Shown piece by piece: positions 2,029-20,786 of a DNA stretch of 64,000 bases. The stretch lies in NCBI GenBank assembly GCA_902826215.1, contig CADEDY010000001.1, positions 434,001 to 498,000 on the forward strand. The letters run 5' to 3'. The position numbers and the translations under genes were made by a program. A model generated the notes under the pieces. That model searched no databases and was not told the DNA's origin. It was given only the letters and a program-made list of their open reading frames with translations. Source of the DNA: an uncultured Bacteroidota bacterium. GTDB lineage: Bacteria; Bacteroidota; Bacteroidia; Flavobacteriales_F; PHOS-HE28. Each line of letters begins with the position of its first letter. The stretch's first letter is position 1.

Positions 2029-2865
2029 ATGACAGAAAGCCCCTTGTTCCCCTTGTTGGATAGTGCCATGGAAGCCGCCTTCGCGGGTGGCACCGCGATC
2101 ATGGACGTTTACGCCAACTCCTTCGAGGTGGAATACAAGAATGACCGTTCGCCACTGACTGAAGCAGACCGCCGGGCCCATAACGCGATCGAAGAAGTTC
2201 TTCAGCGAACAGGCCTTCCCGTCTTGAGCGAAGAAGGCGCGAAGACTCCCGTTGAAGAACGGCAGAAGTGGGAGCGATACTGGCTGGTGGATCCGCTCGA
2301 CGGCACCAAGGAATTCGTGAAGCGCAACGGAGAGTTCGCCGTTTGCATTGCCTTGATGCAGCGCGACAACGAGCCCGCTGGGCCGCTGGGCGCAACTTCG
2401 CCCATCGCTGGGGTCGTCTTCTCTCCCGTTCTGAACAAGCTCTATTTCGCTGCGCAGGGACTAGGAGCGTATTTGAGCACGGAGGCAGCAACCCACCAAG
2501 GCATATCCGCGTATGAACGCGTCGCCATGTCCACCCGATTGCCGCTCAGCGCGAAGCCGAGCACGTTCACCATCCTCGCCAGCCGATCGCACCGCAGTCC
2601 CGAAACGGATGCGTTCATCGCACAGAAGGAGCAGGAACATGGCGCCCTTGAGTTCACTTCCATGGGCAGCGCGCTCAAGTTCGGCCTCATGGCCGAAGGA
2701 GCTGCTGATGTCTATCCACGCTATGCACCCACCATGGAGTGGGACACGGCTGCCGGACAGATCATCTGCACCGAAGCAGGCAAACAACTGATAGACCTCA
2801 CCACCAACGCACCGATGCGTTACAACAAGAACGAACTGGTGAACAACTGGTTCATCGTCCAATGA
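2029..2865 (+). CDS. cysQ: 3'(2'),5'-bisphosphate nucleotidase CysQ
   Basis: CysQ removes the 3'-phosphate of PAP/PAPS, the by-product of sulfate activation. The 278-residue product has the Li-sensitive, Mg-dependent phosphatase (inositol monophosphatase) fold with all three metal-site motifs: SEEG (67-70), DPLDGT (88-93) and the C-terminal EWDTAAG (W238-D239). Length is normal for the family. A TTG at 2020 is in frame, but ATG 2029 is the better start because a promoter -7 element occupies 2015-2022. The stop overlaps the gmd start by 4 nt (ATGA), indicating translational coupling. No other sulfate-assimilation gene is nearby. Confidence 0.9.
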
Positions 2866-4046
2866 GCACCATGACAACGAAACGTAAGCCAGCACCGCGT
2901 AAGACCCCAGTGGCCGCAGCCAAGAAACCCAAGGCCGTGAAAGCCACGAAGACCGCCAAGCGCAAGGTCGCCCTGATCACGGGCGTTACCGGACAGGACG
3001 GTGCCTACTTGAGCGAACTGCTCTTGAGCAAGGGCTACGAAGTGCACGGGATCAAGCGCCGCAGTTCGTTGTTCAACACGGACCGCATCGATCACTTGTA
3101 CCATGACATGCACGAGAAGGGCCGTCCGTTCTTCCTGCACTATGGCGACCTCACCGACAGTGTCAATTGCCTGCGTTTGGTGAAGGAGATCCAGCCCGAC
3201 GAGATCTACAACCTCGCAGCGATGAGCCACGTGGCCGTGAGCTTCGAAATGCCCGAATACACAGCCAACGCCGACGGCATCGGAACGCTCCGTTTCCTGG
3301 AGGCCATCCGCATCCTGGGCATGGAGAAGAAGACCCGTTTCTACCAGGCCAGCACCAGTGAATTGTACGGTGGTGTGCTGCCCCGCGCGCAGAACGAGGA
3401 GACGCCTTTCTACCCGAAGAGCCCTTATGGTGTCGCCAAACTCTACGGATTCTGGATCACCAAGAACTACCGCGAGAGCTATAACATGTTCGCCTGCAAC
3501 GGCATCCTCTTCAACCATGAGAGCCCGTTGCGTGGGGAGACCTTCGTGACGCGGAAGATCACCCGCGCTGTGGCCAAGATCAAGCTCGGTCTGCAGGACG
3601 CGCTCTACCTCGGTAACATCGACGCCAAGCGCGATTGGGGTCATGCAAAGGATTACGTGGAAGGCATGTGGCTGATGCTCCAGGCCAAGAAGCCCGATGA
3701 TTTTGTGCTGGCAACGGGCAAGACCTACACCGTGCGCCACTTCATCGATCTGGCCTTCGGCGAAGTGGGCATCAAGCTCGAGTGGAAAGGAAAAGGCGTG
3801 AAGGAGAAAGGCGTGGACAAGAAGACCGGTAAGGTGATGGTCGCCATCGACCCGCGCTACTACCGCCCGGCCGAAGTGGATCACTTGGAAGGCGACCCCT
3901 CAAAGGCCAAGCGCGTGCTCGGTTGGAAACACAAGTACGACCTGAAGGCCTTGGTGAAGGAGATGGTCCAGAGCGATCTCGAGCTCTTCAAGCGCGACGT
4001 ATACCTGAAGAAGGGTGGCCATAAGATCCTGCACGAACAGGAATGA
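2862..4046 (+). CDS. gmd: GDP-mannose 4,6-dehydratase with a basic N-terminal tail
   Basis: Gmd converts GDP-D-mannose to GDP-4-keto-6-deoxymannose, the first step of GDP-L-fucose synthesis. The product is 394 residues. The NAD(P)-binding motif GVTGQDG is at 41-47 and the catalytic Tyr-Lys pair at Y189/K193 (SPYGVAK). The HGIKRRSS and [15 protein letters not shown] segments are also typical of Gmd. The first ~36 residues are a low-complexity Lys/Ala/Pro/Thr tail absent from ordinary Gmd (E. coli Gmd begins directly with the Rossmann strand). The start overlaps the cysQ stop. fcl follows after 66 nt. Dehydratase activity is near certain; the role of the tail is unknown. Confidence 0.95.
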
Positions 4047-15725: not shown

Positions 15726-15733
15726 TATCTTCG
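15726..15733 (+). promoter_or_regulatory. Putative -7 element (TATCTTCG) of the metH operon
   Basis: A TAnnTTCG element lies 20 nt before the aptamer's P1 stem, so transcription would start near 15740, just ahead of the riboswitch. Its position supports its being genuine. Confidence 0.5.
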
Positions 15734-15753
15734 CGCCACGTTCTTTCATTTCG

Positions 15754-15860
15754 CTTATCCAGAAAGGCAGAGGGTCTTGGCCCTGTGAAGCCTTGGCAAC
15801 CACCGCACGGAAGTGTGTCAAGGTGCCAATTCCAGTCCGCCGCAAGGGGGAGAAGATGAG
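15754..15860 (+). promoter_or_regulatory. SAM-I (S-box) riboswitch aptamer
   Basis: The sequence carries the SAM-I conserved core. P1 5' strand CTTATC (15754-15759) is followed by CAGAAAGGCAGAGGG, GGCCC, TGAAGCC and GGCAACC. Further on come GGTGCCAATTCC and, finally, the P1 3' strand GATGAG (15855-15860). CTTATC and GATGAG pair over six positions with one G-U. The class senses S-adenosylmethionine and normally represses methionine genes; here it precedes the split metH. The gene-off state is expected when SAM is bound because P1 then sequesters GATGAG. Confidence 0.93.
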
Positions 15861-15899
15861 CCGTGATCAGGTACCCCACGCGTGGAAAACACGCATGCT

Positions 15900-15936
15900 G
15901 CCTCGTCCGGTCTTATCGGATGGGGCTTTTGCTTTT
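15900..15936 (+). terminator. Intrinsic terminator of the SAM-I riboswitch
   Basis: GCCTCGTCCG (15900-15909) pairs with CGGATGGGGC (15917-15926), including two wobble pairs, around a 7-nt loop, followed by TTTTGCTTTTTT. An alternative pairing of GATGAGCCG (15855-15863) with CGG-T-CTTATC (15908-15917) would break both P1 and this terminator. This gives a complete transcription-attenuation switch. Confidence 0.85.
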
Positions 15937-15968
15937 TTGGTGATCGAATGGAGGTGCTGCACAACACG

Positions 15969-16994
15969 ATGAAGACACTCGAACAGATCGCCCAAGACCG
16001 CATCCTCGTCCTCGACGGCGCCATGGGCACCATGATCCAGAAGCTCGGCCTCACCGAGGAGGACTTCCATCCCAAGGGCATGGAAGAGCACCCCATCCTG
16101 CTCAAGGGTAACAACGAACTGCTTTCCCTTTCTCGCCCGGAGGCCATCCGCACCATCCACGAGCAATACCTGGCCGCGGGTGCCGACATCGTGGAGACCA
16201 ACACCTTCAGCGCCACCACCATCGCGCAGGCCGAACACCAGTGCGAACATTTGGTGCGCGAGATCAACGTGCGCAGTGCCCAACTCGCCAAGGAAGCGTG
16301 CGCCAAGTACACCGCCATGGATCCTTCGAAACCGCGCTTCGCAGCCGGTGCCATCGGTCCCATGAACAAGACCGCATCGCTCAGCCCCGATGTCAACGAC
16401 CCCGGCTACCGCGCCGTCACCTTCGATGAACTGGTGAAAGCCTACAGCGAACAGGTCGAGGCGCTGCTGGACGGCGGCGTGGACCTCCTGCTGGTGGAGA
16501 CCATCTTCGACACCCTCAACGCCAAAGCCGCGTTCTACGCCATCGAAGAAGTGTTCGAGAAGCGCAACAGGCGTGTGCCCGTCATGTGCAGCGTCACCAT
16601 CACCGACGCCAGCGGCCGCACCCTCAGCGGGCAGACCATCGACGCCTTCCTCATCAGCATGCAGCACGTGCCGCTCTTCAGCATGGGCCTTAACTGCGCA
16701 CTGGGCGCGGCACAGATGCGGCCCTACCTCGAAGTGATCGCCGACCAAGCAACCTGTCGCACCAGCGTATACCCCAACGCCGGCCTGCCCGACCAGATGG
16801 GCGAGTACCGTGAATCACCGGAGGTCACGGCCAAGCTTGTAGGCGAGTTCATGGCCAACGGCTGGGTGAACGTAGTGGGCGGTTGTTGCGGGACCACGCC
16901 GGAGCATATTGCGGCTTTAGCAGCAGAAGCCAAGCGGCACGCACCACGCCCGATCGTTGCACCCGTAGCGTCGACCCACGGGGTCGACCGTTGA
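15969..16994 (+). CDS. Methionine synthase, homocysteine-binding part (split MetH, N-terminal gene)
   Basis: This 341-residue protein is the homocysteine S-methyltransferase (Pfam S-methyl_trans) module of cobalamin-dependent methionine synthase, encoded as a separate gene as in many Bacteroidota. It begins with ILVLDGAMGTMIQ. The zinc-binding cysteines are Cys243 (GLNCALG) and Cys306-Cys307 (VGGCCGTTPEHI). It transfers the methyl group from cobalamin on the MetH2 partner to homocysteine. ATG 15948 is also in frame; 15969 gives the usual N-terminus. The last residues (VASTHGVDR) are encoded by a palindromic repeat. Expression is controlled by the SAM-I riboswitch. Confidence 0.9.
   Translation: MKTLEQIAQDRILVLDGAMGTMIQKLGLTEEDFHPKGMEEHPILLKGNNELLSLSRPEAIRTIHEQYLAAGADIVETNTFSATTIAQAEHQCEHLVREINVRSAQLAKEACAKYTAMDPSKPRFAAGAIGPMNKTASLSPDVNDPGYRAVTFDELVKAYSEQVEALLDGGVDLLLVETIFDTLNAKAAFYAIEEVFEKRNRRVPVMCSVTITDASGRTLSGQTIDAFLISMQHVPLFSMGLNCALGAAQMRPYLEVIADQATCRTSVYPNAGLPDQMGEYRESPEVTAKLVGEFMANGWVNVVGGCCGTTPEHIAALAAEAKRHAPRPIVAPVASTHGVDR
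16965..16988. repeat. Short palindromic repeat, copy 2, overlapping the 3' end of metH1
   Basis: Same 24-nt element as at 4069-4092 with one base changed (T to G at the centre). Here it is read through as the C-terminal residues of MetH1, just before its TGA stop. Confidence 0.6.
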
Positions 16995-17138: not shown

Positions 17139-17666
17139 ATGACCTCTCGAATTGAGATATTGAAGCAGCGGTCGATCCAGTCCACGATTGGTCTAGTTCA
17201 GGATCGCCTGACAGATGATCTTGTAGCTGAGCTGATCGAAGCCTTGCCTGAGCTTAAGGAGTATTCCATTCTATCTGCCCCGGTGACAACCAAAGCCGAG
17301 CTTAAAGCGCTTGTCGATCTTGTCAAGGAATTCAAGCAGCGGCTTCCAAGTGCACTTCGGGAGGATCTTCGTGATGAATTGACAGAGATCCGGGAGGACT
17401 TGAATTGGATGCTTTCGCAGGAAGGTAAGGCGATTCTTGAACTTGAGTCGTGGGTTCAAGTTGCCAGAAGTGAATTGAACGACCTTCGGACGGTGTTCAT
17501 TGGGCGATCGTGGAAAGACCCTATGGTGCTGATCGTAAATGGTGTTGTAACGTATGAGGAGGAACGTGAGCGTGTTGTCAAACTCATCGAAGTCCTACAA
17601 CCACCGGTCAAGCCCACGTATGCGATCGAACTGGAAAGTGATGAATTGGATCGTCAATTGAACTGA
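17139..17666 (+). CDS. Helical cytoplasmic protein of unknown function inside the metH operon
   Basis: The 175-residue product has no signal peptide or membrane segment. It looks almost entirely alpha-helical and charged, with heptad-like stretches (ELKALVDLVKEFKQRLPSAL, REDLRDELTEIREDLNWML) and a C-terminal alpha/beta part (DPMVLIVNGVVTYEEERERVVKLIEVL). I do not recognise the family. Its base composition is visibly less GC-rich than metH on either side. It lies in an accessory insertion together with the Imm32-like gene 16 nt downstream. It could be a partner of that gene, but it does not resemble a known toxin. Confidence 0.7.
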   Translation: MTSRIEILKQRSIQSTIGLVQDRLTDDLVAELIEALPELKEYSILSAPVTTKAELKALVDLVKEFKQRLPSALREDLRDELTEIREDLNWMLSQEGKAILELESWVQVARSELNDLRTVFIGRSWKDPMVLIVNGVVTYEEERERVVKLIEVLQPPVKPTYAIELESDELDRQLN

Positions 17667-17674
17667 GGCGCTGG

Positions 17675-17716
17675 TCATCTGATGGAAATGAACATCCCCA
17701 CCTACTCCGACCTCGA
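17675..17716 (+). repeat. Duplicated metH2 5' end, copy A (at the start of the Imm32-like gene)
   Basis: This segment contains TCTGAT, a start codon and the codons for IPTYS-D-LE. It matches 18041-18079 except for a 3-nt in-frame indel and a few substitutions. It supplies the leader, start and first residues of the Imm32-like gene. Confidence 0.75.
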
Positions 17717-18005
17717 ATCACATCCAATAGGACCAATGCAACTCGTCATCGACCTGCCTGACTATGATCCAACCAAGGGCCTTCAGTACAAGTGGGAGCA
17801 TGGCTTTTGCATCAAGGTGCTCATGGACAATGAGGGCGTGACCATTCAAGGCAACAATGAAGGCCTTCGTTCACTCGCATATCATCTCCTGTCACTGGCG
17901 AATGAAGAAGTACCTCGGACAAGCCACATTCACCTTGACAGTGACAGCGGGCTTGAGGATGGTTCAGCCGCACTCATCATTTCCAAAGAACTCGAGTGCC
18001 CATGA
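17682..18005 (+). CDS. Imm32-like immunity protein with a metH2-derived N-terminus
   Basis: This 107-residue protein resembles the Imm32 family of polymorphic-toxin immunity proteins: a short beta region, then the family signature 'IQGNNEGLRSLAYHLLSLA', 'VPRTSHIHLD' and a final acidic strand with 'GSAALIISKE'. Its first residues (NIPTYSDLE) nearly copy the N-terminus of the MetH2 protein encoded just downstream. The nucleotide sequence around both starts is duplicated, so the ORF looks chimeric. The native Imm32 start may correspond to the Met at 17736 (MQLVIDLP). No cognate toxin is visible. Base composition is lower in GC than the flanks. Confidence 0.75.
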   Translation: MEMNIPTYSDLESHPIGPMQLVIDLPDYDPTKGLQYKWEHGFCIKVLMDNEGVTIQGNNEGLRSLAYHLLSLANEEVPRTSHIHLDSDSGLEDGSAALIISKELECP

Positions 18006-18040: not shown

Positions 18041-18079
18041 TCCTCTGATCGACATGATCCCCACCTACTCCGGCCTAGA
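18041..18079 (+). repeat. Duplicated metH2 5' end, copy B (native metH2 start)
   Basis: Leader TCTGAT, ATG and the codons for IPTYSGLE at the true metH2 start. Partner of 17675-17716, with 325 nt between the copies. Confidence 0.75.
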
Positions 18080-20786
18080 GCCGCTCCGCATATTCAAGGA
18101 GAGCAACTTCGTCAACATCGGCGAACGCACCAACGTCACGGGCAGTGCGGCCTTCCGCAAGCTGATCAAGAACGGCAACTACGATGAGGCCGTGAGCGTG
18201 GCCCGCCAGCAGGTGGAGAACGGCGCGCAGATCATCGATGTGAACATGGACGAAGGCTTGATCGATGGCGTGCAGGCCATGACCAAGTTCCTCAACCTCA
18301 TCGCCGCAGAGCCCGATATAGCGCGCGTGCCGGTGATGGTGGACAGCAGCAAGTTCAGCGTGATCGAAGCGGGCCTGAAGTGTTTGCAAGGCAAAGGCAT
18401 CGCCAACAGCATCAGCCTGAAGGAAGGGGAGGAGGAATTCCTGCGCCAGGCCAAGATCATCCGTCGCCTCGGTGCAGCAGCCGTGGTGATGTGTTTCGAC
18501 GAGCAAGGCCAGGCCGACAACTACGAGCGCCGCATCCAGATCGCGCAACGCGCCTACGACCTGCTCACGCAGAAAGCGGGTTACCCGCCGCACGACATCA
18601 TCATCGACCCGAACATCCTCACGGTGGCCACGGGCATGAGCGAGCACGATCGTTACGCCATCGACTACATCGAGGCCGTGCGCTGGATCAAGCAACACCT
18701 GCCCGGTGCCTTGGTGAGCGGTGGCGTGAGCAACGTGAGCTTCAGCTTCCGAGGCAACGAACCGGTGCGCGAAGCTATCCACACCGCCTTCCTCTTCCAC
18801 GCCATCCAGGCGGGCATGGACATGGGCATCGTCAACGCCGGGCAGATCGGTGTGTACGATGACATCCCGAAAGACCTGCTGGAACACGTGGAGGATGTGT
18901 TGCTCGCACGGCGCCCCGATGCCACCGAGCGCATGGTCACCTTCGCGGAACAGTTCAAGGGAGCGCCGAGTGCAGAGGTGGTGGCCGCGCAAGCCGCATG
19001 GCGCGAAGGCACCGTGGAAGAGCGCTTGAAACACGCGTTGGTACACGGCAACACCGAGTTCATCGAAGCCGACACAGAAGAGGCCCGTGTGAAATACCAC
19101 GAGCCCGTGCTGGTGATCGAAGGTCCCTTGATGGCCGGCATGACGGTGGTGGGTGACCTCTTCGGAGCGGGCAAGATGTTCCTGCCGCAAGTGGTGAAGA
19201 GCGCGCGCGTGATGAAACGCGCAGTGGCGTATTTGGAACCCTTCCTCGAAGCGAAGAAACAAGAGAAAGCGGCCGCCTCACCCCAACCCCTCTCCCAAGG
19301 AGAGGGGCTTTCCACCCTAGGGACTCGTCAAGAGGGTGCCAAGAAAGTCCTGCTGGCCACGGTGAAAGGCGATGTGCACGACATCGGCAAGAACATCGTG
19401 GGTGTGATCCTCGCGTGCAATGGCTGGCAAGTGATCGACCTGGGCGTGATGGTGCAGAGCGCGACGATCCTGAAGACCGCACGCGAAATGCAAGTGGACA
19501 TCATCGGCCTCAGCGGATTGATAACACCGTCGCTGGATGAGATGGTCCACGTGGCGAAGGAGATGGAACGCGAAGGCTTCGAGACACCGTTGTTGATCGG
19601 CGGTGCCACCACGAGCCGTGTGCATACCGCCGTGCGCATCGCGCCGCACTATAGCAAGCCGGTGGTGCATGTGATCGATGCTTCGCGCAGCGTGAACGTG
19701 GTGAGCAACTTGCTCAGCGACAACGAGCGCACGCGCTACGAAAGCGAGCTGAAGGACGAGTATGCCCGGGTGCGCACGCAGTATGAAGGCAACCAGCGCG
19801 AGAAGGAATACGTGCCGTTGGCCGAAGCGCGGCAGAAGAAGTTCACCATCGACTGGAACGCCGAGCATCCGATCGCGCCCAAGAGCACCGGCGTCTTCAC
19901 CTTCCGCAATTTCCCGCTGGACCAACTGGTGCCCTACATCGACTGGACGCCCTTCTTCATGGCGTGGGAACTGGCGGGCAAATTTCCGAGGATCCTCACC
20001 GACGAGGTAGTAGGTGTGGAAGCCACGCGGTTGTACAATGATGCCCGTGCGATGCTGGACCGCATCGTCAAGGAGCAATGGTTGCAGGCGCACGGCGTGG
20101 CGGCCATCTGGCCTGCGAACACCGTGGACGATGACGACATCGAACTCTACACTGATGCGTCGCGCAACAAGGTGGTCGGTCGTTTCCAGACCATGCGCCA
20201 ACAATCGAAGAAGGCGCCCGGTGTGCCTTACATCGCACTCGCCGATTTCATCGCACCAAAAGGAACTCCGGACTACGTGGGTGGTTTCGCCGTCACCACA
20301 GGCCATGGCGTGGATGAACGCGTGAAACGGTTCGAGGACAAGCAGGACGACTACAGCGCGATCCTCTTGAAAGCCCTCGCCGATCGGTTGGCCGAAGCCT
20401 TCGCCGAGAAACTGCACGAGACCATCCGCAAAGAGATCTGGGGCTACGCCGAAAAGGAAGCCCTGGACAACGACGCCTTGATCAAGGAAGCGTACGACGG
20501 CATCCGTCCCGCACCGGGTTATCCGGCCTGCCCCGATCACACCGAGAAACCCGAGCTCTTCCGCCTGCTCGATGCCACGAAGCACACGGGCATCACCCTT
20601 ACTGAAGGCTTGGCGATGTACCCGACCGCAGCGGTGAGCGGCTTCTACTTCGCGCATCCCAAGAGCAAGTACTTCGGCGTGGGTCGCTTGGGCAGGGACC
20701 AGGTCCAGGACATGGCCGGTCGCAAAGGCGAAAGCACCGAATGGATGGAGCGTTGGCTAGGTAGCAACCTGGGCTACGAACCCTGA
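18054..20786 (+). CDS. metH: Cobalamin-dependent methionine synthase, pterin/B12/activation part (split MetH, C-terminal gene)
   Basis: This 910-residue protein carries the methyltetrahydrofolate-binding domain ([14 protein letters not shown] near residue 20, then [11 protein letters not shown]), the helical cap, the B12-binding Rossmann domain and the SAM-dependent activation domain. In the B12 domain, GDVHDIGKN has His442 as the cobalt ligand. The activation domain includes [15 protein letters not shown]. With the upstream homocysteine module it reconstitutes full MetH. Residues ~406-428 between cap and B12 domain ([11 protein letters not shown]...TRQEG) have no counterpart in E. coli MetH and are encoded by a palindromic repeat. 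The start is the ATG at 18054 inside a duplicated segment. It is the distal gene of the SAM-I operon. Confidence 0.95.
19277..19313. repeat. Palindromic repeat inserted in frame in metH2
   Basis: CCCCTCTCC (19287-19295), loop CAA and GGAGAGGGG (19299-19307) form a perfect 9-bp hairpin, flanked by CTCACCCCAA and CTTT. Similar CCCCTCTCC-type palindromes are frequent between genes in environmental bacterial genomes. Here the element is translated as [10 protein letters not shown] in the linker before the B12 domain. Confidence 0.7.

Follow-up and report, generated by a model that had tools for sequence, protein, structure and literature searches.

A SAM-I leader with competing terminator and antiterminator pairings precedes a split metH in an uncultured Bacteroidota bacterium

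The leader of a split metH gene in the window, a 64,000-nucleotide stretch of DNA from an uncultured Bacteroidota bacterium, is very probably a SAM-I (S-box) OFF switch acting through transcription attenuation. Judged from its sequence, it is an ordinary and well-preserved transcription switch of the known S-box OFF type and brings no new ligand, fold or mechanism. The aptamer family, the terminator, the competing pairings, their conservation and the predicted energies were computed directly, and the leader provides a clean, testable SAM-I terminator switch outside Firmicutes.

A covariance-model search placed the SAM-I aptamer (RF00162) at 15752-15862 of the window's forward (+) strand, on which all features given below also lie. 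The match covers model positions 1-108 of 108 and shows the four-helix structure, and its 74.8 bits (E 1.1e-15) lie well above the gathering score of 44.4, bearing out the SAM-I aptamer called by the initial annotation; we infer that it binds SAM. A whole-genome search identified it as the sole RF00162 copy in the window's genome, and it precedes a methionine/SAM pathway gene, the metH halves. P1 is a short stem with one G-U pair, formed by CTTATC (15754-15759; placed by sequence, with P1 present when the aptamer alone is folded to its lowest energy) and GATGAG (15855-15860; placed by sequence, the RF00162 match and predicted folds). These positions, as well as those of CCG (to 15863), CGG (15908-15910), T (15911) and the second CTTATC (15912-15917), were all as first annotated. 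The switching role had been given to CTTATC; as the SAM-I literature uses the term, the switching strand is the one sequestered by P1 from the antiterminator (PMC3656099, available portion), which here is GATGAG, the strand common to P1 and the antiterminator. In predicted folding the whole leader was more stable than its shuffles (z -2.29), with 3 of 200 shuffles equally good.

Between the aptamer and the gene lies an intrinsic terminator (15900-15938) with a conserved stem. It consists of a hairpin with ten or more pairs at 15900-15926, found by terminator scan, sister alignment and predicted fold and carrying the second CTTATC in its loop, and of the U tract TTTTGCTTTTTT (15927-15938; sequence and terminator scan), which is broken by GC. 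The scan returned one site, this hairpin followed by TTTTGCTTTTTT, and is weak taken alone because shuffles averaged 0.8 sites. The antiterminator joins the 5' strand GATGAGCCGTGATCAGG (15855-15871) to the terminator 5' arm and loop, including the second CTTATC (15901-15917), both strands being supported by the sister alignment, pair counts and the predicted fold. It draws on the P1 3' strand and precludes both P1 and the terminator, with weak covariation. In the lowest-energy ligand-free fold, 15855-15863 pairs with 15908-15917 and then 15865-15871 with 15901-15907, and the terminator 5' arm and loop are wholly occupied. The competition for GATGAG between P1 and an antiterminator, as originally proposed, is thus recovered, both pairings being possible and present in predicted folds. 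The nine pairs of GATGAGCCG with CGG-T-CTTATC named at that time are real and all standard; the antiterminator they described was incomplete, as 15865-15871 and 15901-15907 also pair. A small hairpin, GCGTG-GAAAA-CACGC (15880-15894), is predicted within the antiterminator loop, in a linker whose sequence is variable among the aligned relatives. The predicted ON fold additionally has the released P1 5' strand paired with the terminator 3' arm, an interaction that we do not claim as part of the mechanism.

According to the proposed mechanism, RNA polymerase would start shortly upstream of the aptamer, which would fold first and form P1 from 15754-15759 and 15855-15860. With SAM bound, GATGAG would be held in P1 and hairpin 15900-15926 could therefore form at the U tract and stop transcription. 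With SAM absent, GATGAGCCG-u-GAUcAGG would pair with CCUcGUC-CGG-u-CUUAUC as the latter emerges (at about 15917), and the antiterminator would already occupy the terminator 5' arm and loop when the 3' arm (15918-15926) is transcribed, allowing the polymerase to enter metH. Use of the promoter and termination in the cell are here what we infer for the window leader. Competition between P1 and an antiterminator is the textbook S-box mechanism (PMC3656099, in the part available).

Among the relatives searched, RF00162 was present in 46 of 58 (35 congeneric, the others from the same class), and a metH N-terminal homologue follows 25 of the 30 genus leaders, another gene following the other 5; one leader with its aptamer cut at a contig end (L050) was omitted from all counts. 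The genus alignment contained 32 distinct metH-type leaders from the P1 3' strand to the U tract. Identical copies and five leaders of a second type were left out, together with L033/L071 and L054 (P1 or the GCAAC motif missed by the filter, and no clear terminator either), L051/L057 (with an insert longer than the filter allowed) and L061 (at the edge of a contig). Terminator pairs were formed in 98.9% across the 32 leaders, the base G-C pair being swapped for A-U in 12 rows. For the antiterminator, 95.7% of cells were paired (13 pairs, 32 distinct leaders), compared with 20-44% when a strand was slid. The pattern used to pick the rows demanded GATGAG and GATC, leaving antiterminator columns 1-14 unable to vary. 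The antiterminator covariation, one pair changed on both sides in 2 cells, is at a level reached by 98 of 500 shuffles, and its weakness comes partly from the row selection, which fixes the P1 3' strand. P1, antiterminator and terminator were kept together in the sister leaders. Two relatives, L033 (1-2110) and L054 (near 2790-3000), retain the aptamer and a CTTATC-bearing stretch with no clear hairpin and U tract before metH, and their control may differ. An insert ahead of the P1 3' strand cuts the covariance-model match short in L045, L047, L048, L051 and L052, where the true GATGAGCCG is located 20-50 nt farther downstream.

When both states were folded, P1 formed first, the antiterminator was preferred by about 3 kcal/mol once complete, and the two were near balance at the end, which is the order expected. 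Folding growing window transcripts stepwise from 15745, we found the P1 state lowest up to 15915 and the antiterminator taking over once 15917 had emerged, enforcing P1 costing 3.0 kcal/mol at 15918; with the terminator complete the states were near level (P1 cost 1.3 kcal/mol at 15937). The 32 sister leaders were folded with 10 nt of native 5' context each. P1 was cost-free in all 32 with the aptamer alone, and the completed antiterminator appeared in the lowest fold of 25 leaders and not in 7 (median P1 cost 3.1 kcal/mol). With the terminator complete the median P1 cost was 0.2 kcal/mol, near balance, the antiterminator still being lowest in 8 leaders; in the P1 state the terminator was formed in 31. 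On predicted energies, which describe secondary structure only, the folding order thus permits a choice during transcription in 25 of the 32 leaders and not in 7. The energies depend strongly on the 5' end, the final P1 cost in the window being 1.6 kcal/mol with a start 10 nt earlier and 7.1 kcal/mol with a start at CTTATC. Because P1 came out too weak in folding from CTTATC, we adopted the 10 nt of native 5' context in its place; both are reported. The predicted pattern suits a decision made during transcription, for which SAM may need to hold P1 just briefly.

To place the leader within its class, we searched 109 Bacteroidia genomes that were at least 90% complete and found RF00162 in 78. 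The class set comprised 101 leaders outside the genus, drawn from this search and from that of the 58 relatives, two RF00162 matches below the cut-off (G098 and G081:C32) being left out. Under a strict rule requiring a terminator within 100 nt of the aptamer, one was present in 53 class leaders (49 of 73 genomes) and in 7 of 505 shuffles; the same rule gave 23 of 30 leaders in the genus. A looser scan, accepting a hairpin within 220 nt, picked up 29 of the 30 genus leaders and 68 of the 101 class leaders and was dropped in favor of the strict one because it also found 93 of 303 shuffles. A MetH N-terminal homologue follows 64 of the class leaders, 39 of them with a strict terminator; the 48 class leaders that lack one may act otherwise. 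Pairing of the P1 3' region with its own terminator arm and loop averaged -10.8 kcal/mol, compared with -7.8 kcal/mol for those of other genomes (P value 1.4e-7), and the mean rank of own pairs was 0.27 and not 0 because related platforms cross-pair.

The initial annotation regarded this architecture as mostly described in Firmicutes. That agrees with the 2007 survey, whose available text gives transcription attenuation as dominant in Firmicutes and translation attenuation as commonest elsewhere (PMC2258182), but terminator-type SAM-I leaders are common across Bacteroidia. We favor, with modest confidence, the joint reading that termination is the usual SAM-I mode in Bacteroidia, above all before metH, and that the genus leader is a kinetic switch whose complete terminator and antiterminator states are nearly equal in energy. 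If true, the usual termination in Bacteroidia contrasts with the picture of mostly translational riboswitches outside Firmicutes. The count of 53 in 101 suggests that the 2007 generalization on translation control needs rechecking for SAM-I in Bacteroidota, and the commonness of such leaders is the mildly useful part of our results.

The duplicated CTTATC had been put forward as the key feature of the switch, and the model given with it, an antiterminator made only of GATGAGCCG with CGG-T-CTTATC in which the duplicate is essential, is unlikely to hold exactly. Its nine pairs do occur in the window's predicted ON fold, but that fold also contains GAUcAGG/CCUcGUC, as does the conserved alignment, and the exact loop CTTATC is present in one of the 32 aligned leaders, that of the window alone. 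As most rows have nCATC in the loop, the CTTATC copy is one of several partners and not a signature, and on the leaders compared it is private to the window's genome; what is conserved as partner is the terminator 5' arm with an nCATC-type loop. The hexamer is not rare in the window (12 copies vs. 13.4 expected on both strands of the 64 kb), and by our own arithmetic a second copy within about 60 nt on the same strand has a chance below 1%. In 10 of 131 collected leaders, the window's included, the P1 5' hexamer recurs exactly within the following 110 nt, some of the repeats lying outside any terminator. The repeat was ruled out as a conserved signature by the alignment count, and as a chance hexamer by the terminator and antiterminator pairing: the same pairing is conserved in sister genomes, which puts the architecture beyond chance. 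Any such switch needs its terminator to contain a near-copy of the P1 5' strand.

Two further readings keep the aptamer sequence but not the proposed attenuation. Control could be mainly translational, with a real aptamer, a weak terminator and a SAM-dependent structure hiding the metH start region, as the general finding of the 2007 survey for bacteria outside Firmicutes (PMC2258182, as far as available), the interrupted U tract of the window and the class leaders without a strict terminator would suggest. We consider this very unlikely: the sisters conserve the terminator stem and U tract, though the spacer leading from the terminator to metH is variable in both length and content, and neither possible metH start (15948 or 15969) lies inside the terminator or the antiterminator. 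The short P1 with its G-U pair could also be taken as the mark of an aptamer that has decayed and lost SAM binding, leaving a constitutive terminator or a readthrough leader. Such decay is extremely improbable given a full-length RF00162 match well above the cut-off and a leader that is kept before metH in most of the genus matches (25 of 30), with P1, antiterminator and terminator retained jointly. Transcription attenuation in response to SAM thus stays our preferred explanation for the leader.

SAM-I leaders of Bacillus subtilis (e.g., yitJ) share with the window leader the aptamer family, the mutual exclusion of P1, antiterminator and terminator, the P1 3' strand common to P1 and the antiterminator, and the terminator in the bound state (PMC3656099, available sections). 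The window leader differs from them in its uncultured, Flavobacteriales-like host, its split metH target and its Bacteroidota-type promoter. In other Bacteroidia SAM-I leaders, mostly before metH, a terminator likewise lies 20-45 nt past the aptamer and pairs through its 5' arm and loop with the P1 3' region, whereas expression-platform sequences vary from family to family. A second SAM-I leader type occurs in the same genus (L010, L014, L017, L021 and L026), in which the GATAAG of P1 can similarly pair with a CTTATC (or CTTGTC) carried by a hairpin downstream. It has its own expression platform, GATAAGaCGAT with ATCGgCTTATC-like sequence, and precedes a gene read from sequence as a candidate Cys/Met-metabolism PLP enzyme; the whole-genome RF00162 search found no leader of this type in the window's genome. 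Older S-box work is reportedly that of Grundy and Henkin. Reports of SAM-I in Bacteroidetes date from 2007 (PMC2258182 and PMC2211319, parts available), and a 2025 RNA-seq study describes, in its available part, many transcription-terminating cobalamin riboswitches in Gram-negatives (PMC12121620). Our literature search, with most subscription papers outside its scope, returned no paper on SAM-I terminators in Bacteroidota specifically or on a SAM-I riboswitch with Flavobacteria.

A sigma-70 scan found no promoter in the leader region of the window, as is expected in Bacteroidota, and we therefore used the TAnnTTTG element instead. A putative -7-like element with one mismatch, TATCTTCG (15726-15733), lies 18 nt upstream of the aptamer. 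Allowing up to one mismatch, TAnnTTTG was present 10-70 nt upstream of the aptamer in all 29 genus leaders tested, compared with 25% of shuffles, and exact copies were present in 12 of the 29, compared with 1.4% of shuffles. The elements are mostly located 17-23 nt before the aptamer in the genus leaders. The consensus is that of Bacteroidota promoters as quoted in PMC7366714 (available portion).

The leader is followed by the MetH N-terminal half with the homocysteine S-methyltransferase domain (15969-16994, with an alternative in-frame ATG at 15948; PF02574, E 4.5e-96, and the N-terminal part of NCBIfam methionine synthase models). The C-terminal half (18054-20786), with pterin-binding, B12-binding and activation domains (PF00809, PF02607, PF02310 and PF02965; TIGR02082 above cut-off), is probably in the same operon, and metH as target fits the SAM pathway. 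Among named relatives, the nearest are metagenome assemblies of Flavobacteriales, the MetH N-terminal half being 85-92% identical in the closest. Two small genes lie between the halves (17139-18005); the product of one, 175 aa long, matched nothing in Pfam or NCBIfam, and that of the other, 107 aa long, contains an Imm32 domain (PF15566). Across the 24 named relative loci with both halves placed, the gap ranges from 6 to 2838 nt and none contains the window's two genes; the gap looks like an insertion hotspot.
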